Part shown: positions 24,477-36,474 of the stretch, piece after piece | How positions within the stretch are numbered: the first letter of the stretch is position 1 | Layout of the letters: each line of letters starts with the position of its first letter | Source: Chloroflexota bacterium | GTDB lineage: Bacteria > Chloroflexota > Dehalococcoidia > Lucifugimonadales > UBA3495 | Assembly: GCA_009837355.1 (NCBI GenBank) | Contig: VXTR01000066.1 | Coordinates: 1 to 41,446, forward strand | DNA length: 41,446 nt | Direction of reading: 5' to 3' | Position numbers and translations under genes: made by a program | The notes under the pieces: generated by a model | The model's input: only the letters and a program-made list of their open reading frames with translations | Told to the model about the DNA's origin: nothing | Databases searched by the model: none

Positions 24477-25037
24477 TTACACCGGCAAAAACGGCTCATC
24501 CGACGCGGGCGGCAGCTGCTCGAAGGCGTTGATGTTGAAGGCCAGGACCGAGTAGTAGCCCATCAGGTTGGTCAGCTCGATGAGGCCGCGGTCGCCGAAC
24601 TCGGCGCGGGCGGCGTCGAAGGTGGCCTGGGATACCCGGCGGGTGCGGAAGAACTCCCGGCCGTAGTTGATGACGGCAGACTCCGCCGATGACAGTTGCG
24701 GCAGGTCTGCCTTGTCGCGCAGGCTGTCCACCAGGGCGTCGCTGAGGCCGGCGCGGCGGCCGGCGGCGGCGTGGGCGTGCCAGATGAACTGGCAATCCAT
24801 TTCGCGGGCGGTGGTGAGCATGGCGAGCTCCGCTACGTTGTCGGACAGAGTCGAACCGCCGGCGCGCAGGTAGTCCCGCAGCACTTCGCCGCGCTGGGCG
24901 ATTTCAGGCACGTGGAGCTGGACGGCTACCGGCCCCAGCTCCGGCACGACGTTGTTGCGGGACGACACGATGGCGTCGAAGGCGGCTACCTGTTCCTGGG
25001 GCACGGTGTCGCGGCGGGCGGCTGGAAAGCGGGGCAT
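24477..25037 (-). CDS. Carboxymuconolactone decarboxylase-like (AhpD fold) protein, copy 1
   Basis: The 186-residue protein has the CMD/AhpD helical fold with the family core AELAMLTTAREMDCQFIWHAHAAAGRRAGL at about residues 68-97. Only one cysteine is present in the core and no CxxC, so it is not an AhpD-type peroxidase. A gamma-lactone decarboxylase or unknown hydrolytic role fits. AGGAGA precedes ATG 25037; a longer frame upstream to 25160 would overlap the LLM gene. It is a clear paralog of the gene at 32711 (same MPR/MARxP..RDT start and same core). It ends the minus-strand operon of two LLM oxidoreductases. Confidence 0.88.
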   Translation of the reverse strand: MPRFPAARRDTVPQEQVAAFDAIVSSRNNVVPELGPVAVQLHVPEIAQRGEVLRDYLRAGGSTLSDNVAELAMLTTAREMDCQFIWHAHAAAGRRAGLSDALVDSLRDKADLPQLSSAESAVINYGREFFRTRRVSQATFDAARAEFGDRGLIELTNLMGYYSVLAFNINAFEQLPPASDEPFLPV

Positions 25038-25074
25038 GGCGGGTTCTCCTGTTGGCTGTGGTTGGATGGGTCGG

Positions 25075-26085
25075 TTATTGGCAGTGGGGAATGACTTTCT
25101 CGCCGAAGAGCTGGATGGCCTCCATGATGCGTTCGTGGGGCGGGCCGCCGGAGTGGGCATGGCGCAGGCGCAGCAGGAAATAGTCGGCGCCCGTGGCTTC
25201 CTGCCAACGGTGGAACTCGTCCACCACCTCCTGCGGTTCGCCCAGGATCAGGCGGTCGGGGCCTAGATTGCCGATGTTGATTTGCGACTCCTCGGTGTAG
25301 CGGCGGAACTCGTTGAGGCCGTTGCGCCAGTAGTACTTGTAGGCGTCTATGACCTCCGGGCCGTACACACGCTCGGCTTCGGCCCGGGTGGGCGCAACCC
25401 AGGCGTCCCGCATCAGGCAGATGACCGGCTGCCGACGGGATTCCTCGGCGGCTCGCTGGTACGCCGAGGTCAGGGCGATGGTGCTTTCCAAATCGGTGCT
25501 CGGCCCGGCCACGAAACCGTCGGCGATCCGTCCGGCCCGACGCGCGCCGGGGACGCGGCTGGCGCCAATCCACAGCGGCGGCGAGGGATCCGAGTATGGC
25601 TTGGGGGTGATGGTGATGTCCTCCAGGTTGAAATGCTCGCCGGAGAAGTCGAACCGCTCACCGCTCCAGCACTGGCGGATGATTTCGATTTCTTCCTCAA
25701 AACGGCTGACGCGCTGTTCGATGGGGGTGTCAAAGGTGCGAAAGTCCACCGGCTGGTATCCCAGGCCAACGCCGAGGATGAAACGTCCCCGCGATACCAG
25801 GTCCAGCGTGATGACGTCTTCCGCCATCTTGACCGGGTGATGCAGCGGCAGCAGGATGACCGAGGTGCCCAGGTTCAACGTGGTGGTCTGGGCGGCTACG
25901 GCTGCGGACACGATGAGCGGCGAGGGCAGAAAGCCGTCCTTGTCCTGGTGGTGCTCGCCGAAGAAGCAGGAGTCAAACCCCGATGACTCGGCCAGCTTCG
26001 CCTCGTCCACCACCTCGTCAATCCGCAGGGCCAGGTTCTCCCCGGCCGGCGGGTCTGCGATGGAACTGTAGATGCCGAACTTCAT
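25075..26085 (-). CDS. LLM-class flavin-dependent oxidoreductase (luciferase-like)
   Basis: The 336-residue luciferase-like monooxygenase has MKFGIYSS, the FFGEHHQDKDGFLPSPLIVSAAVA segment at about residues 41-63, LGTSVILLPLHHPVKMAEDV at about 72-91 and GRFILGVGLGYQPVDF around 100. This version, with the EHH motif, resembles FMNH2-dependent monooxygenases rather than the F420 group, which is inference. It starts 5 bases after the neighbouring LLM gene, so the two are one transcript. Such enzymes commonly insert oxygen or desulfonate organic substrates; the substrate here is unknown. Confidence 0.9.
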   Translation of the reverse strand: MKFGIYSSIADPPAGENLALRIDEVVDEAKLAESSGFDSCFFGEHHQDKDGFLPSPLIVSAAVAAQTTTLNLGTSVILLPLHHPVKMAEDVITLDLVSRGRFILGVGLGYQPVDFRTFDTPIEQRVSRFEEEIEIIRQCWSGERFDFSGEHFNLEDITITPKPYSDPSPPLWIGASRVPGARRAGRIADGFVAGPSTDLESTIALTSAYQRAAEESRRQPVICLMRDAWVAPTRAEAERVYGPEVIDAYKYYWRNGLNEFRRYTEESQINIGNLGPDRLILGEPQEVVDEFHRWQEATGADYFLLRLRHAHSGGPPHERIMEAIQLFGEKVIPHCQ

Positions 26086-28878: not shown

Positions 28879-30180
28879 ATGCGTATCCTGCTGATTGCCA
28901 CCAACCGACACAACCGCGTTATGAGCCGTATGCGCGCCCAGCCCATTCCCATCGGACTGGCCTACGTCGCCGGCCACATCGACCGCTCGCGCCACGAAGT
29001 CAAGCTGGTTGACCTCATGTTCGCCAGCGACAGCTACCTGGATGAGGTAGAGCAGACGGTGCGGGACTTCAATCCCGAGTTGGTGGGCATTTCCATCAGG
29101 AACCTGAGCAATCACAGCTACGTTGACCCGCAGTGGCAGTTGCCTATCACCAAAAGCGTCATTGAGCGGATACGGACCATCTCAGACGCAACGATAGTTT
29201 GCGGAGGGCCGGCTTTCAGCATCATGCCCCGTCAGGTCTTCGACTTCGTGCAGCCGGACCTTGGCATCGCCGGCGACGCCGGAGAAACCTTCGCCGACCT
29301 GGCCAACCGCATCGAGGTTGGGGAGCCCGACTATCGCGGGATGACCGGCCTGCTCTACCGCGAAAGCGGCGAGCTGGTCTATAACGGGATGCGCTGCTCG
29401 TCCGACTTCATCGAACGTCCCAGCCTGGACGACCTGGATATGTCCAGGTACGCCAAGGCCGGCTTCGGCGTCAGCGTCCTCACCAAGCTGGGCGGGTTCT
29501 ACTATCCCACTTCTGCGGACGATATACGTACCCCCGAAGGCGCGTGGCGGGTGATTCGTCCCATCGATGAGGTTGTTGAGGAAGTGGCAGAGGTTACCGA
29601 CCGGTATGGCCTGAAGAAGATTTTCTTCGTGGACAACTGCTTCAACGTACCGCTGGAACACGCCAAGGACCTGTGCCACGCCCTCATGGACGCCGAAGTC
29701 AAAGTGCGCTGGAACACCTGCCTGGCTCCCTACGCCTGCGACGCCGAGCTGATTGGTCTGATGAAGGAAGCCGGTTGCGGCCTGGTGATGATGGGCGGCA
29801 CCCGCGGCGGCGACCCCCACGAAGGCGACAACGACACCTCTCGCTACGCATCCCTTAAGGAGACCACCGACCTGTGCGAAGCCGGCGACCTGCATTACAC
29901 CATCTCGCAGCAATTCGGCGAACCTGGTGAAACCCGGCAGTCTGTCGAGAACAAGTTGGAGTTCCTGCGCGGGCTGAAGCCGTCCCTGGCCAACCTCCGC
30001 GTCGGCGTCAGCGTGATGCCCGGCACCGACGTGGCCGCCCGCTGCATTGAGGAAGGCATCGTAAAAGACGAATCCGAGCTGATTGCGCCGACTTTCTACA
30101 TGGCCGAGGAAGTCCGTCCCTGGCTCGTTGACTACCTCCGCGAGCTGGTGGACGCCAACCCGCGCTGGAACCTGATGTAG
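28879..30180 (+). CDS. Cobalamin-binding/radical-SAM-like protein lacking the CxxxCxxC cluster motif
   Basis: The 433-residue protein has the two-domain layout of B12-binding radical SAM proteins: an N-terminal Rossmann-like domain (about 1-145, ending IVCGGPAFSIMPRQ and AGDAGETFADL), and then a radical-SAM-like barrel with KKIFFVDNCFN (about 246-256), WNTCLAPYACDAELIGLMKEAG and QFGEPGET. Where CxxxCxxC should follow VSVLTK, the sequence is VLTKLGGFYYPTSADD (residues 200-215), with no cysteine. The nearest cysteines are C108 and C173, outside the loop. No frameshift is visible: the frame is open throughout and neighbouring frames do not supply the cysteines. It would be unable to form the usual [4Fe-4S] cluster, so it may be a pseudoenzyme or have another function. 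The ATG follows GGGAG. Confidence 0.8.
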   Translation: MRILLIATNRHNRVMSRMRAQPIPIGLAYVAGHIDRSRHEVKLVDLMFASDSYLDEVEQTVRDFNPELVGISIRNLSNHSYVDPQWQLPITKSVIERIRTISDATIVCGGPAFSIMPRQVFDFVQPDLGIAGDAGETFADLANRIEVGEPDYRGMTGLLYRESGELVYNGMRCSSDFIERPSLDDLDMSRYAKAGFGVSVLTKLGGFYYPTSADDIRTPEGAWRVIRPIDEVVEEVAEVTDRYGLKKIFFVDNCFNVPLEHAKDLCHALMDAEVKVRWNTCLAPYACDAELIGLMKEAGCGLVMMGGTRGGDPHEGDNDTSRYASLKETTDLCEAGDLHYTISQQFGEPGETRQSVENKLEFLRGLKPSLANLRVGVSVMPGTDVAARCIEEGIVKDESELIAPTFYMAEEVRPWLVDYLRELVDANPRWNLM

Positions 30181-30204: not shown

Positions 30205-31656
30205 ATGACTTTGACGCGTGATGCTCAGTTGGGCGCCCAACGAATTACTCTGGCTGACTCCGAAACCGTCCGCATCGCTCATCTGCTGCGCCGGGCCGGC
30301 TTCACTCCCACCCGCGCCGAAATTGAGCGGGCCGTGGCCCAGGGCTACGAGGCAACTGTCGAGGAGCTGCTGCATCCCGACGAGCAGCCCGACCTGGAAA
30401 TCGAAGACCTCATCCGCCGTTATCACGTTGACCAGAACAGCCTCATGCTGCTGGATAGCAGCCAGGGCTATTGGCTCTATCGCATCATCAACTCGCGCCG
30501 ACCGCTGGAAGAAAAAATGGCGCTGTTCTGGCACGGCCTTTTCGCCACCGCCTACGGCAAGCTCAACCACGCCAAGGCGGTGGTCAACCAGACCCATACC
30601 TTCCGCCGCCACGGGTTGGGCAAGTTCGCTGACATTCTGCTGGAGCTGTCCCGCGACCCCGCCATGATTTTCTGGCTGGACAACAAGGACAACCACCGGG
30701 ATGCTCCCAACGAAAACTACGGGCGCGAGTTGCTGGAGCTGTTCTCCATGGGCATCGGCAACTACACCGAGGACGACGTTAAGGCCGCCGCCCGCTCCTT
30801 CACCGGATGGACAATCGAGAACACCGAGTACATGAGCATCCGCGCCAGCCGCGATTCCTTCTGGCCATACGGCCGCATCGACTGGCAGTTCCGTTACCGC
30901 GACGACGACCACGACGACACCGAAAAAACGTTCCTGGGCCACACCGGAGCGTTCAACGGGCAGGACGTCATCGACATCATCATCCGGCAGCCGGCCACGG
31001 CCCACTACATTGCCGGCAAGCTCTACAATTTCTTCGTTTCCGACCGGCCGGACGAGGAGGCCATCGGCATCCTGGCCGACGAGTTCACGCGCACCGAGGG
31101 CGATATACGGGCCGTGATGCGCCGTATGTTCCTGTCCGACTTCTTTGTTGACCAATCCGTTCGCTTGGGCCGGGTCAAGAGCCCCGCCGAGCTGGTGGGC
31201 GGCACGGCGCGTTTGGCCGGCAGCCATCGCACACCGGAGTGGACTATCTGCAACCTGGCCATGGACGTCAACTTCATGGGGCAGGAAATCCTGAACCCGC
31301 CCACGGTGGAGGGCTGGCACACCGGCATGGAGTGGATCGACACCGGCAACTTGGTGGAACGCATCAACGCCGCCGGCGCCGAGATGCGCGATACTTCCCG
31401 GCCCGGCGTCCGTGCCGTCATCGACCGCGTAAAATCCGCCGGCAACAACCTCGCGCCGCAGCAACTGGCCGAGGCGTGCTTGGACGCCCTGGGAATGTTT
31501 GAAGTGTCGGATGCAACCCTGGACAGCTTGGTCGCTCTGGCCGCGCCCTGGGGCGAAGTCCGCTTCGACCGGCCCGAAGCCGCCGCCTGCGCCGAAGAGC
31601 GAATCTCCGAAATGCTGCAACTTATCGTCGCCTCCCGGGAGTACCAGTTGGCATGA
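30205..31656 (+). CDS. DUF1800 domain protein
   Basis: The 483-residue protein matches DUF1800: HLLRRAGFTPTRAEIERAVAQG near the start, RRPLEEKMALFWHGLFAT at about 94-111, NENYGRELLELFSMGIGNYTEDDVKAAARSFTGW at about 171-205, and a C-terminal REYQLA ending. DUF1800 genes usually pair with DUF1501 (twin-arginine exported) genes; none is here. No signal peptide is visible. ATG 30205 follows GAGG by 8 bases; GTG 30184 is an alternative start. The NHL gene starts in its stop codon. Function is unknown. Confidence 0.88.
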   Translation: MTLTRDAQLGAQRITLADSETVRIAHLLRRAGFTPTRAEIERAVAQGYEATVEELLHPDEQPDLEIEDLIRRYHVDQNSLMLLDSSQGYWLYRIINSRRPLEEKMALFWHGLFATAYGKLNHAKAVVNQTHTFRRHGLGKFADILLELSRDPAMIFWLDNKDNHRDAPNENYGRELLELFSMGIGNYTEDDVKAAARSFTGWTIENTEYMSIRASRDSFWPYGRIDWQFRYRDDDHDDTEKTFLGHTGAFNGQDVIDIIIRQPATAHYIAGKLYNFFVSDRPDEEAIGILADEFTRTEGDIRAVMRRMFLSDFFVDQSVRLGRVKSPAELVGGTARLAGSHRTPEWTICNLAMDVNFMGQEILNPPTVEGWHTGMEWIDTGNLVERINAAGAEMRDTSRPGVRAVIDRVKSAGNNLAPQQLAEACLDALGMFEVSDATLDSLVALAAPWGEVRFDRPEAAACAEERISEMLQLIVASREYQLA

Positions 31657-32681
31657 CCACAGCCGCCGCAACCGCGTCGTTCGCCTACAGCCATACCGTC
31701 GGATTCCTGGCCTACCGTGGGCGTGGGTTCATCCACCCTATTGACCTCGCCCTGGGCGATGATGGGGTGATGTACGTGCTGAACCGGGGCGGGCCGGAGT
31801 CCGTGGGCCGCCTGGAACACAAGCGCGTCTGCGTCTGTACCGTTGACGAAGGCTACGTCGGCGAATGGGGCACCGGCGGCATTGAAGACGGTCAATTTTG
31901 GTGGGCCAGCGGTATAGCTCGCGCTGCCGATGGCCGGCTTTACGTCACTGATGAAGCCTTACAGCGGATCAATATATTCGACCCCGATGGCGTTTTTCTC
32001 CGGTACTGGGGCGAGGTCGGCGACGAGCCGGGCCAAATCAATCGCCCTGCTGCCATCACTGTCGCCCCCGATGGTACGCTGCTGATTACCGACGGCTTGA
32101 ATCATCGCGTCCAGCGTTTCACCACGGAGGGCGAATACCTGGACGGCTGGGGCGAGTTCGGGGCCCAGGCCGGACAGTTCAACACGCCCTGGGGCTTGTG
32201 CTGCGACGCCGAGGGCAACGTGTTAGTCGCCGACTGGCGCAACGACCGCGTGCAGGCGTTCACGTCGTCCGGTCGCTTCGTCGGCCAGTGGGGTACCTCC
32301 GGAGAGGGCAAGGGGCAACTCAGCCGTCCCTCGTCAGTGGCGGTGGACGGCGACGGCTATATCTACGTTGCCGATTGGGGTAACGAGCGGGTGCAGATTT
32401 TCGCCCCCGATGGCGAAGTGGCCGCCGTTCTCCACGGCGACGCCACCACGTCAGCATGGGCGGAGGACTACCTGGCGGCTAACCCCGACGAGTCCAGGGC
32501 ACGCCGGGAAGCCAACCTGGTGCCGGCCGTTAACCCCTGGCGCGACCATCACCGGGAAACCTCCGCCCGCGTGGAGGCCCGGTTCTGGGGACCGACGTCA
32601 ATCAACGTGGATGCCCAGGGCCGCATCTACGTGGTGGATTCCTGCCGCCACCGGGTGCAGGTCTATCGCAAAAATGTGTAA
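31653..32681 (+). CDS. NHL-repeat beta-propeller protein
   Basis: The 342-residue protein carries at least five NHL-type blades, each ending in motifs such as LYVTDEALQRINIF, LLITDGLNHRVQRF, VLVADWRNDRVQAF, IYVADWGNERVQIF and IYVVDSCRHRVQVY. It is probably a six-bladed propeller for protein or ligand binding. It overlaps the DUF1800 stop by ATGA, so they are translationally coupled. No signal peptide is visible. The stop codon lies in a palindrome related to that after recQ. Confidence 0.9.
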   Translation: MTTAAATASFAYSHTVGFLAYRGRGFIHPIDLALGDDGVMYVLNRGGPESVGRLEHKRVCVCTVDEGYVGEWGTGGIEDGQFWWASGIARAADGRLYVTDEALQRINIFDPDGVFLRYWGEVGDEPGQINRPAAITVAPDGTLLITDGLNHRVQRFTTEGEYLDGWGEFGAQAGQFNTPWGLCCDAEGNVLVADWRNDRVQAFTSSGRFVGQWGTSGEGKGQLSRPSSVAVDGDGYIYVADWGNERVQIFAPDGEVAAVLHGDATTSAWAEDYLAANPDESRARREANLVPAVNPWRDHHRETSARVEARFWGPTSINVDAQGRIYVVDSCRHRVQVYRKNV

Positions 32682-32710: not shown

Positions 32711-33277
32711 TTAGCCCGGTATCCGCTGCAACAGCGGGTCGGTGCGGTTGGGCGGCAGGTCGGTCTCAAAAGTGTTGATGACCATGGCCAGCATGGTGTA
32801 GTTGCCCAGCACCAGGGTCAGTTCAATGGTGCCCTGCTGCCCGAAAATCTCCAGCGCGCTCTGGTAGCCGCCGCGGCTCACTTGGTGATTGCACAGGATC
32901 TCCCGGCCCAGATTGATTACCGCCGATTCGTCCGGCGCCAATTCCGGCAGCGGTTTCTTGTCGCGGATCGCGTCCACCACTGCGGCCGGAACGCCAGCGT
33001 CCCGCGCCGATGCGGCGTGGGCGTTCCAGATGTGCTGGCAGTCCATCTCGCGAGCGGCGACCAGCATCGCCAGCTCCGCTGCTTTCATCGGCAGGCTGGC
33101 GTGATTGCGCAGGTACTGGTTCAGCGCCGTGGCGTGCTTGCTGGCCTCGGGCACGTGGGTCATCACCGAGCCGGGGCCGTAGGGCGGCACCGCGCTGCCG
33201 TTCTGGGTGATTTCGTCGAAGGCAGCCTCCTGGCCGGCCGGCGTAGTGTCACGGGATGCTAGTGGTAGTCGCGCCAT
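32711..33277 (-). CDS. Carboxymuconolactone decarboxylase-like (AhpD fold) protein, copy 2
   Basis: The 188-residue protein starts MARLPLASRDTTP and has the core AELAMLVAAREMDCQHIWNAHAASARDAGV, matching copy 1 at 24477. Again there is no CxxC. AGGAGA is 7 bases before ATG 33277. It follows the RraA-like gene by 10 bases and is almost certainly co-transcribed with it, pointing to a ring-cleavage or lactone step in the same pathway. The true reaction is unknown. Confidence 0.88.
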   Translation of the reverse strand: MARLPLASRDTTPAGQEAAFDEITQNGSAVPPYGPGSVMTHVPEASKHATALNQYLRNHASLPMKAAELAMLVAAREMDCQHIWNAHAASARDAGVPAAVVDAIRDKKPLPELAPDESAVINLGREILCNHQVSRGGYQSALEIFGQQGTIELTLVLGNYTMLAMVINTFETDLPPNRTDPLLQRIPG

Positions 33278-33287
33278 TTCAATTCTC

Positions 33288-34016
33288 CTATCGGTAAGGC
33301 TGCTTGCCCGTCTTCTCTTCAAAGAGTTTCCAAGTGTTTTCGTTGAATGGATAGTACTTGCCCGGCGAGCACTGCTCAACCTCCAGTTGCGCCTTGATGA
33401 CCGCCTCAACCTCTTCCCGCTGGTGGGCGATGTTGATGACCTCCTGCGCCGCGCTGGCCGGAACCACCACCACTCCATCGTCATCGCCGACGATAGCGTC
33501 GCCGGGCCGGACCAGCACGCCGCCGCACTGGATGCAGTCGTTCACTTGCCAGGGCCAAAACTCGGCCGGCCCCTGCTTGGCGGTGGCGTTGGCCGAATAG
33601 ACGGGAAAGCCGTACTCTTTCAGCGTGTTGGTGTCGCGTACCGCGCCGTCGGTTACCAAGCCGCCCACGCCGCGTTGGTAGAGGCGGTAAAACTTGATGT
33701 CGCCGCCGATGCTGCTGAAGAGCCAGCGCATGGCGTCAATCACCAGCACCTCTCCGGGGCCGCACAGCTCGAAAGCCACGTACTCCGCGGAGTCGGCTCC
33801 CTTGGGCTTGTCGGCGGCCAGGTCGGGACGGTGAGGGACGAAACGCAGCGTAACCGCGCGTCCGGCCATGTGCTGGCCGGGCTGCAATGGCTTGGCTCCC
33901 TCAATCATGCTCATGGGCCAGCCCATCACCCATAGCCCGTCAATCAGGGTTTGGGTTGGGATGGCTTTGAGTGTAGCCAGCGTTTCATCGGAAAGTTGAG
34001 TAGCAGTAGCGGTCAT
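33288..34016 (-). CDS. RraA-like / 4-hydroxy-4-methyl-2-oxoglutarate aldolase family protein
   Basis: The 242-residue protein has the RraA/HMG-aldolase fold motifs: the GPGEVLVIDAM strand (about 89-99), GGLVTDGAVRDTNTLKEYGFPVY (about 116-138) with the RD pair that binds the divalent metal and substrate oxo-acid, and PGDAIVGDDDGVVVVP at about 173-188. True HMG/CHA aldolases cleave pyruvate-derived intermediates of protocatechuate or gallate meta-cleavage; RraA proper regulates RNase E. A catabolic role is more likely given the adjacent decarboxylase-like gene. The start at 34016 is the second of two in-frame ATGs (34064 is longer and overlaps the promoter candidate). The C-terminus is longer than in E. 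coli RraA. Confidence 0.88.
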   Translation of the reverse strand: MTATATQLSDETLATLKAIPTQTLIDGLWVMGWPMSMIEGAKPLQPGQHMAGRAVTLRFVPHRPDLAADKPKGADSAEYVAFELCGPGEVLVIDAMRWLFSSIGGDIKFYRLYQRGVGGLVTDGAVRDTNTLKEYGFPVYSANATAKQGPAEFWPWQVNDCIQCGGVLVRPGDAIVGDDDGVVVVPASAAQEVINIAHQREEVEAVIKAQLEVEQCSPGKYYPFNENTWKLFEEKTGKQPYR

Positions 34017-34091: not shown

Positions 34092-35186
34092 CTATTCACC
34101 GGGCCAGCCGTCGGCGCGCTCGCCGGCGGCCAGCGCGGCCCGGATGCCCTCGGCGGCTGGCTCGGTAACCCATTGCGCCCATGCGTCTTCGTTGTTGTTC
34201 AGCCACCGGATAGCGGCATCGGCATAGCTCGCGTCCTGCTCGATTCGCCACCTGGCCAGCCCGGTGTAACTTTCGGTGTCCAGATGCCACTTGCGCAGCA
34301 TATCCACCACTTGCGGAGCTCGGCCGTCCAGCTCCGGGTTAACTCCGATCAGTACGGTGGCGTCCTCATAGGCGCAGGCTTTGTTCGTGTGCCAGCACCG
34401 GTCGCTGTACTCCGGCTCGGCCAGCCGCACCAGGTCCAACAGCAGCACCGGCTCGTTCAGGCTCTCCTGGTAACCCAGCCAGGGCTTCCTTTTCTCGTAC
34501 AGGCGGTACAGTTCTCCGTTGGCAATCTCACGGGTTCCGGGGTTCACGACGTGAACGTGCTCCGACAACCCGTATCCGGCGACCTGCGCCGTGTTCACTT
34601 CGTCGCAGGCCCACCCCACGAGGCAGGATACCAACCGCGCCTTGCCGTCGGTGTCCGCCGTGGCGAACAGTTCACGATACTGGGGGTCTTTCAGGTCTTC
34701 CACGCTGTCCAGATCGGGGTACTGCTCCTGGATGTAGGCCGGGATGACGAAAGCCGATTGCCAGGTGCTACTCAGGCTGCGACCTGCGGAAATCACGTCT
34801 CCGGCGGCCTGCGCGTCTACCCAGGCCTCATCTTGGTTGGGCAGCCAGATTTCCATGGCTACGTCAATTTCACCCTGACGCAGGCTCCTGAAGAGCGCCA
34901 GCGTCCCGCCGAACTCTGCCCGGGACGGATAGCCGTAGCCTTTCTCCACGATGTACTGGGCGATACGGTTCTGTAGTTGGGCGCTGTCCCAGTTCAGGTC
35001 GCTGAAAACGATTGGCTCTTTGGGAGGCGCAATTGTGGCCACTATGGCCTGTGTTGCCGGCAGCGGCGCGCCCGGCGACGACTGGACATCTCGTGGTTCT
35101 GCCCCTGGCGAGCAGGCAATCGCCATGGCTACTAGCGCCATTGCCAAGAGGACGACCGGCGACATGATTGCGGTTCTACCCAGCAC
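34092..35186 (-). CDS. Glycine betaine/proline-type ABC transporter substrate-binding lipoprotein, copy 1
   Basis: The 364-residue protein has a lipoprotein signal ending in IAC with C25, and the ProX/OpuAC binding domain with NWDSAQLQNRIAQYIVEKGYGY, MEIWLPNQDEAW and WLNNNEDAWAQWV. The Trp-rich segments match the aromatic cage for quaternary amines in the family. The GTG start is supported by AGGAGG (35192-35197), 5 bases away. It is a paralog of the gene at 35278 but lacks its coiled linker. A terminator lies upstream, so its expression is separated from the importer genes unless read through. It may bind a different ligand. Confidence 0.9.
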   Translation of the reverse strand: MLGRTAIMSPVVLLAMALVAMAIACSPGAEPRDVQSSPGAPLPATQAIVATIAPPKEPIVFSDLNWDSAQLQNRIAQYIVEKGYGYPSRAEFGGTLALFRSLRQGEIDVAMEIWLPNQDEAWVDAQAAGDVISAGRSLSSTWQSAFVIPAYIQEQYPDLDSVEDLKDPQYRELFATADTDGKARLVSCLVGWACDEVNTAQVAGYGLSEHVHVVNPGTREIANGELYRLYEKRKPWLGYQESLNEPVLLLDLVRLAEPEYSDRCWHTNKACAYEDATVLIGVNPELDGRAPQVVDMLRKWHLDTESYTGLARWRIEQDASYADAAIRWLNNNEDAWAQWVTEPAAEGIRAALAAGERADGWPGE

Positions 35187-35204
35187 ATCAGCCTCCTGAT
35201 AACT

Positions 35205-35239
35205 AAAAAGCGGGGCAGTCTGCGTAGAGACCGCCCCGC
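35205..35239 (-). terminator. Rho-independent terminator after binding-protein copy 2
   Basis: On the minus strand a 12-bp stem with one mismatch (arms 35228-35239 and 35210-35221, loop 35222-35227) is followed by TTTTT at 35209-35205. It ends the 35278-36474 transcript and insulates or attenuates copy 1 downstream. Confidence 0.85.
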
Positions 35240-35277
35240 CCGTGTGGGTAACGTGGTTGAGTGAATCGCGCGTGCGA

Positions 35278-36474
35278 CTACTCGGTGGGCCAGCCGTCGG
35301 CTTCCTCGCCGGTGCTCAGCGCGGCCTGGATGCCCTCGGCGGCTTCGTTGGTAACCCAACCGCCCCATACGTCGGCGTTGTTGTTCAACCACCACAGGGC
35401 CGTTGCCTTGACGTCGGCATCGGGGTTCTGGCCCTGCCAGCGTGCAACTTCCTTGTAGATGTCGATGTTGAAATCCCAATTGCGCAGCATTTCAACTACG
35501 TCGGGAGCCTCGCCGGGCAGGTTGGGATTGACCGCGATGAGGATCGTGGCGTCCTGGTAGCCACAGGCTTTGTCGGAGTTCCAGCAAGCATCGCTGTACG
35601 CCGGTTCTTCCAGGCGAACCAGGTCCAGGATGAGCGCCGGGTCGTTGGTGCCCCACTGGTAGCCCAGCCAGGGCTCCTCGCGCTCATACGCGCCGTACAG
35701 GTCGGCGTTCAGCGCGGCGCCGTCGCCGGGGTTAATGATTTCCACGTGGTCGGAAAGGCCATAGCCCGCAACCTGTGCGGCGTTCACGGTTTCACAGGCC
35801 CAGCCGATGATGCAGGATACGAGGCGAGCCTTGTCGCCGGTCTCCGCGGTCTGGAACAGTTCCTTGTACTGTGGGTCTTTCAGGTCTTCCACGCTGTCCA
35901 GGTCCGGATACTGCTCTTGCAGGTAGGCCGGAATGACAAAGGCCGACTGCCAGTCCTTGCCTAGGCTCTGGCCTACGGAAAGCACTGCACCCTCCTCCCG
36001 AGCTTCGTTCCAGGCTTCGTTCTGGTTGGGCAGCCAGATTTCCATTGTTACGTCGGTGTCGCCATTCTTCAGACCCTGGAACAGGGGCAGCGTCGCGCCG
36101 AACTTCACGTCGGTAGGATAGCCGTAGCCCTTCTCGACGATGTACTGGGCGATACGGTTCTGCAGCAAGGCGCTGGACCAGTTCAGGTCGCCGAAAATGA
36201 TGGTCTCTTTCGGCCCTTCAGGAGCCATAACTTCGACCTCGACGACTTTCTCGACTTCCTTAACCACTTCCTCGGTTACGACCCGCGTAACCTCGACCTG
36301 CTCTTGCTCAGTCACTACTCGGGTGACCTCGACCTCAACAGGAGCCGCCTGCTCGGTCACCACGCGGGTAACCTCAATGGTCTGGGGTTCGGCCGGCGCA
36401 CAAGCGGCTACGGCGAGAACCGTAACCAGGGCCATTGCCATGGCCAGGGCGAATAATCTGTACTTGGTGAACAA
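35278..36474 (-). CDS. Glycine betaine/proline-type ABC transporter substrate-binding lipoprotein, copy 2
   Basis: The 398-residue lipoprotein has a signal ending VAAC (C25). Between it and the binding domain is a charged repeat linker with three VTRVVTE copies followed by VVKEVEKVVEVEV, a stretch typical of Chloroflexota lipoproteins and probably a coiled tether to the membrane. The binding domain repeats the NW, EIWLPNQ and WLNNNADVWGGWV segments of copy 1. The TTG start at 36474 follows GGGAGGG. It has its own promoter (36536-36564) although it lies downstream of proW. Ligand specificity is not determined. Confidence 0.9.
   Translation of the reverse strand: MFTKYRLFALAMAMALVTVLAVAACAPAEPQTIEVTRVVTEQAAPVEVEVTRVVTEQEQVEVTRVVTEEVVKEVEKVVEVEVMAPEGPKETIIFGDLNWSSALLQNRIAQYIVEKGYGYPTDVKFGATLPLFQGLKNGDTDVTMEIWLPNQNEAWNEAREEGAVLSVGQSLGKDWQSAFVIPAYLQEQYPDLDSVEDLKDPQYKELFQTAETGDKARLVSCIIGWACETVNAAQVAGYGLSDHVEIINPGDGAALNADLYGAYEREEPWLGYQWGTNDPALILDLVRLEEPAYSDACWNSDKACGYQDATILIAVNPNLPGEAPDVVEMLRNWDFNIDIYKEVARWQGQNPDADVKATALWWLNNNADVWGGWVTNEAAEGIQAALSTGEEADGWPTE

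Follow-up and report, generated by a model that had tools for sequence, protein, structure and literature searches.

Does a protein that combines a B12-binding domain with a radical-SAM-like barrel, and that has no cysteines to bind an iron-sulfur cluster, still have a chemistry of its own, or is its gene decaying? The question is raised by a gene in a 41,446-nucleotide contig (VXTR01000066.1, assembly GCA_009837355.1, a member of the Chloroflexota; this whole stretch is called the window hereafter). A sequence-only reading had described an intact frame, a preserved two-domain layout and preserved barrel motifs around a loop devoid of CxxxCxxC, and had taken the product for a protein that is maintained but whose chemistry is lost or changed. 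The frame is indeed open from an ATG start at 28879 to 30180 on the + strand and encodes a product of 433 amino acids, with the following features.

28879..30180, + strand: cysteine-less B12-binding/radical-SAM-like protein (open frame; Pfam B12-binding; TsrM profile, E 8.4e-35; dN/dS 0.056)
28942..29301, + strand: N-terminal B12-binding Rossmann domain, PF02310 (Pfam; model superposition on 4jgi)
29098..29100, + strand: codon of R74, aligned with Arg69 of TsrM (alignments; 60/60 in the clade)
29416..30177, + strand: radical-SAM-type barrel and C-terminal part, residues 180-433 (TsrM/AprD4 profile match; model matches to TsrM, AprD4, MgmA and MiaB)
29464..29553, + strand: cysteine-less loop, residues 196-225 (alignments; loop dN/dS 0.017)
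29494-29496, 29506-29508 and 29515-29517, + strand: codons of G206, P210 and A213, in place of the three cluster cysteines

The two-domain layout was recovered by profile searches. The Pfam B12-binding family (PF02310) matched residues 22-141 with 58.2 bits (E 1e-15), over its curated cut-off of 32.1 bits, and Radical_SAM (PF04055) gave a weak match to residues 225-362 with 18.6 bits, below its cut-off of 29.5 bits, that enters the profile at position 26, i.e. downstream of the cysteine loop. The only sequence relatives in the PDB were TsrM, whose profile covers both domains (E 8.4e-35), and AprD4; these matches and a barrel model (mean pLDDT 61) indicate homology to the partial TIM barrel of radical SAM enzymes, of which IFFVDN and QFGEPGET are expected motifs. 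Among the NCBIfam models the top matches were B12/radical-SAM families, with TIGR04072 (rSAM_ladder_B12; 192 bits, cut-off 360) and TIGR04385 (BzaD; 117 bits, cut-off 450) nearest and aligned over nearly the full length, followed by PhpK and TsrM (TIGR04428; 78.8 bits, cut-off 500), every score lying below the curated cut-off; that of TIGR04072 was passed in none of 247 genomes of the order. Pfam revealed no DNA-binding or signalling domain in the protein, and a PHROGs search with it returned no match.

In the alignments the CxxxCxxC columns fall on G206, P210 and A213, and across the clade defined below they are occupied mostly by G/D/Q/S, then P, then A/D/S/G. The motif, which holds the SAM-ligated [4Fe-4S] cluster, was found neither in the window protein nor in any of 137 high-scoring homologous ORFs from all fetched loci (some places having been fetched more than once), and it was present in 32 of 34 lower-scoring relatives, the two exceptions being one truncated, frame-split gene fetched twice.

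The homologue search returned at least 62 distinct cysteine-less sequences, 39-100% identical to the window protein. They come from 63 of 250 genomes of the order to which the window genome belongs, recorded as Chloroflexi, Dehalococcoidia or SAR202 cluster MAGs. The gene is present in all 13 other genomes of the genus (85-94% identity), in nearly all genomes of the family (mostly about 54-68%, one 41%) and in some other families of the order. A second copy, 44-56% identical, is found in many genomes of the family; the loops of the second copies at loci L045-L048, L049-L051 and L052-L054 are quite different (VTKLDD..., ITKWF... and ITKLGWYSST...), which suggests several sub-functions within one genome. 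A sample of 400 genomes of the phylum yielded zero further members, the best other matches being 28-33% identical and having CxxxCxxC, and four scans of viral contigs found no relatives. With the family profile all 62 aligned members scored above 540 bits, versus 219 for the best motif-bearing relative. In a maximum-likelihood tree the 62 sequences formed one clade (support 100/99), and the remaining 21 relatives all carried the motif. The clade branches beside two Chloroflexota sequences, L060 and L061 (support 99/92), then TsrM and a third Chloroflexota sequence, L059, inside the TsrM/BzaD-type group of B12 radical SAM proteins, with some long branches that make the deeper branching order less certain. 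The close homologues thus all lack the cysteines, the cysteine-less form is a conserved clade, as the earlier reading had proposed to check, and the cluster ligands are absent across this one clade, most simply by a single loss.

Within the genus the gene as a whole has a median dN/dS of 0.056; taken by part, the medians are 0.067 (B12 domain), 0.046 (barrel) and 0.017 (cysteine-less loop). Six neighbouring window genes, compared likewise, gave 0.044-0.131. The gene is under strong purifying selection and the loop is its most constrained part; with such a value the loop is therefore not a relic. The conserved clade, these ratios and the radical-SAM-type barrel in low-confidence models bear out the view of a maintained protein rather than a decaying one.

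A full-length model, built from 14 close sequences (mean pLDDT 57), had TsrM as its best structural match, with a wrong arrangement of the domains (rmsd 14.7 versus TsrM). Its residues 1-147 superpose on the cobalamin-binding protein 4jgi (Z 11.7, 2.5 Å over 117 residues) and its residues 194-423 on the radical SAM barrel 2qgq (3.4 Å over 177). The barrel modelled by itself was slightly better and matched MgmA, TsrM, MiaB and AprD4 at Z of about 11, with radical SAM enzymes occupying the top ranks. The predicted fold is consequently of the radical SAM type at low confidence (mean pLDDT 57-61), and a different fold, which the sequence-only reading had named as evidence against itself, was not what superposition returned. 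The models agree with the sequence evidence but are too coarse for a description of the pocket.

The nearest known system is TsrM, a tryptophan 2-C-methyltransferase (TIGR04428; PDB 6WTE, 6WTF) in which Arg69 sits under the cobalt, blocking a lower ligand, and methyl transfer proceeds by heterolysis with no 5'-deoxyadenosyl radical (PMC8992657, PMC13331322). The window protein shares with TsrM the two-domain layout, a GG..FS..P segment and, as R74, the arginine that marks the TsrM-type group. R74 and N75 are conserved across the clade as well as in each of the six TsrM/BzaD-type relatives, and an equivalent of Arg69 was found in BzaD-type proteins and in L059-L061, but not in other B12 radical SAM relatives. 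Unlike TsrM, the window protein has no CxxxCxxC, is about 140 residues shorter, and has C254 (often G elsewhere in the clade) at the position of the Fe-binding Glu273. BzaD likewise has an RN after strand 3, and both BzaD and the TIGR04072 family differ from the window protein by their cysteine motif. The nearest cysteine-bearing relatives, L060 and L061 (genomes G148 and G140), have in common with the clade R74, N75, FNxPLxHAK and, close to the C-terminus, a PTFY segment; they differ by GCPFxCxxC and are only 26-32% identical.

Within the clade, S72, R74, N75 and GG109-110 are invariant (60-62 sequences, 39-100% identical to the window protein), and their retention suggests that cobalamin is probably still bound. 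The host genome encodes three other B12-binding proteins, so that the organism probably uses cobalamin or a related corrinoid. We compared the clade with a reference set of positions that are conserved in at least five of the six TsrM/BzaD-type relatives and do not differ in either of the two nearest cysteine-bearing ones. The clade has lost just seven of these (C206, C210, C213, A8, G38, P170 and L316), and those kept include R74-N75, GG109-110, F113, P117, G132, N256, G299, G350 and P381; most of the scaffold common to the nearest relatives is kept. Two further features are absent from the clade, the E normally found in the GEGE segment and the SAM-side GxES motif. This loss is not tied to that of the cysteines, because the nearest cysteine-bearing relatives already lack both features or have them in altered form, GxES being degenerate in TsrM-type relatives as well. 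New invariants of the clade include A7, T8, L76, N78, S175, F196, K247, N279, K359, R374 and W415.

The gene neighbourhood was the one point on which the sequence-only reading held only in part. An AI-2E-type permease precedes the gene in the window, and two genes whose ends overlap or nearly so follow it closely.

30205..31656, + strand: DUF1800 protein, encoded next in the apparent operon (PF08811, E 2.6e-106; mechanical ORF from GTG 30184)
31653..32681, + strand: NHL-repeat beta-propeller protein (Pfam NHL, E 1.3e-34; start codon overlapping the DUF1800 stop by 4 bases)

Whether the cysteine-less gene always sits beside DUF1800 and NHL genes had been put forward as a check; this adjacency is confined to the genus and three other genomes (G023, G021 and G487, where a PFK-type kinase gene is inserted). 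A phosphofructokinase-type kinase gene lies between the cysteine-less gene and DUF1800 at loci L112, L118 and L098. In G015, G022 and G032 the closest DUF1800 homologue is located away from the cysteine-less gene, and in f121 and f6 (loci L117, L120, L121, L132) DUF1800/NHL pairs lie 4-8 kb from it, which can be chance because those genomes hold 13-17 DUF1800 copies each. DUF1800 is expanded in genomes of the SAR202 order, which hold between 1 and 19 copies each (the window genome 11), and the window DUF1800 protein lacks a DUF1501 partner and, on visual inspection, an obvious signal peptide.

Upstream in the window, on the other strand, are genes for a TlpA-like thioredoxin and luciferase-type monooxygenases. 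At other loci the neighbours encode a CoA-transferase III with a thiolase, P450, amidohydrolases, a GMC oxidoreductase, or an HpcH aldolase with an alpha/beta hydrolase. No gene recurred as a constant partner across the loci examined; the neighbours differ between lineages and name no substrate. Two further arrangements were observed in the window: two adjacent OpuAC-type substrate-binding proteins by a permease and an ATPase gene (34095-36474), forming a duplicated betaine-type uptake system, and, flanking the operon on either side, two related proteins with the look of carboxymuconolactone decarboxylases (EMDCQ..H; 24480-25160 and 32714-33484, - strand), neither with a Pfam match at 1e-5. 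A homologue of the latter also follows a distant paralogue at L110.

As to function, the leading and still tentative reading is that the window protein is a cluster-less descendant of the TsrM/BzaD-type branch with an arginine under the cobalt, which would bind cobalamin and carry out polar cobalamin chemistry. From the missing cysteines we infer that the scaffold works by something other than SAM radical chemistry. Cobalamin would be bound base-off with R74 beneath the cobalt, SAM would not be cleaved to a 5'-deoxyadenosyl radical, and the reaction would be a two-electron one, either transfer of a methyl group or some other Co(I)/alkyl-Co(III) step. The substrate would be a small molecule accommodated by the re-purposed barrel, in a changed pocket lined by clade-specific invariants such as N279, K359, R374 and W415. 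Such a protein could have arisen from a TsrM-like ancestor in which SAM was already not used for radical generation, TsrM being itself non-radical. The main weakness of this reading is that cob(II)alamin would call for an external reductant, with no consistent partner gene found; TsrM itself keeps its cluster, possibly for the supply of electrons. The lack of the SAM-side GxES in the clade and the low pLDDT of the models (57-61) also count against it.

A somewhat less probable alternative is that the protein binds cobalamin or a corrinoid and catalyses nothing, acting as a sensor, a corrinoid carrier or a scaffold for neighbouring catabolic enzymes. Catabolic genes (CoA-transferase III, amidohydrolase, P450, GMC oxidoreductase) do lie upstream on the opposite strand at many loci, and the cobalamin side is the better kept, with 28 of the 43 clade-conserved positions of the B12 domain identical in both sister sequences versus 18 of 42 in the barrel. 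However, the barrel together with the C-terminal part is about as conserved within the clade (42 versus 43 positions), its new charged or aromatic invariants K359, R374 and W415 suggest an active or ligand site, and no DNA-binding or signalling domain was detected by Pfam. Polar cobalamin chemistry is favoured over a catalytically silent protein because the barrel has gained these invariants of its own.

It is improbable that neither cofactor is bound and that the old scaffold has been fully re-purposed, for instance as a sugar- or acid-binding enzyme that uses only the barrel. The loss of both the cluster loop and GxES would fit such a protein, as would weak matches of the low-confidence barrel models to ordinary TIM-barrel epimerases, but the clade-invariant S72, R74, N75 and GG109-110 are hard to explain without a ligand. 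More doubtful still is a cluster held through other cysteines or supplied by a partner protein. C266 (62/62), C300 (58/62) and C333 (61/62) are nearly general in the clade, but C266 and C300 are about 34 residues apart and do not make a new site, because they are common in the motif-bearing relatives too (15/21 and 19/21); the further barrel cysteines C254, C281 and C287 are not general in the clade, and no constant partner gene turned up at the loci examined. Local mutation, errors in sequencing or assembly, and gene decay can be dismissed, since dozens of independent assemblies contribute the 62 distinct sequences that share the cysteine-less form, and dN/dS is 0.056.

Cysteine-less radical-SAM-like families have already been named. 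Two of them, pseudo_rSAM_GG (TIGR04150) and pseudo_SAM_Halo (TIGR04347), we take to be families without the cluster motif and, presumably, other subfamilies without a B12 domain; neither model matched the window protein. In the open-licence literature we found no description of a kind with a B12 domain, and nothing useful on cysteine-less radical SAM proteins or on radical SAM genes of SAR202. Such genes call for caution in annotation pipelines, because they are easily labelled 'radical SAM protein'.

SAR202 is an abundant, uncultured marine lineage of the Chloroflexota whose metabolism is mostly inferred. Held more loosely than the reading of the window protein itself is its possible extension to the whole clade, whose members may be cobalamin enzymes on a radical SAM scaffold without an Fe-S cluster, doing polar chemistry on small molecules in SAR202, as an end point of the trend seen in TsrM. 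The clade offers a natural experiment, one scaffold with and without its cluster, split by a single well-supported branch. If its proteins bind cobalamin and are active, methyl-cobalamin chemistry would not need the cluster of TsrM-type enzymes, and the clade would supply a simpler catalyst that may also be less sensitive to oxygen; if they are inactive, SAR202 would possess a widespread and conserved cobalamin-binding pseudoenzyme.
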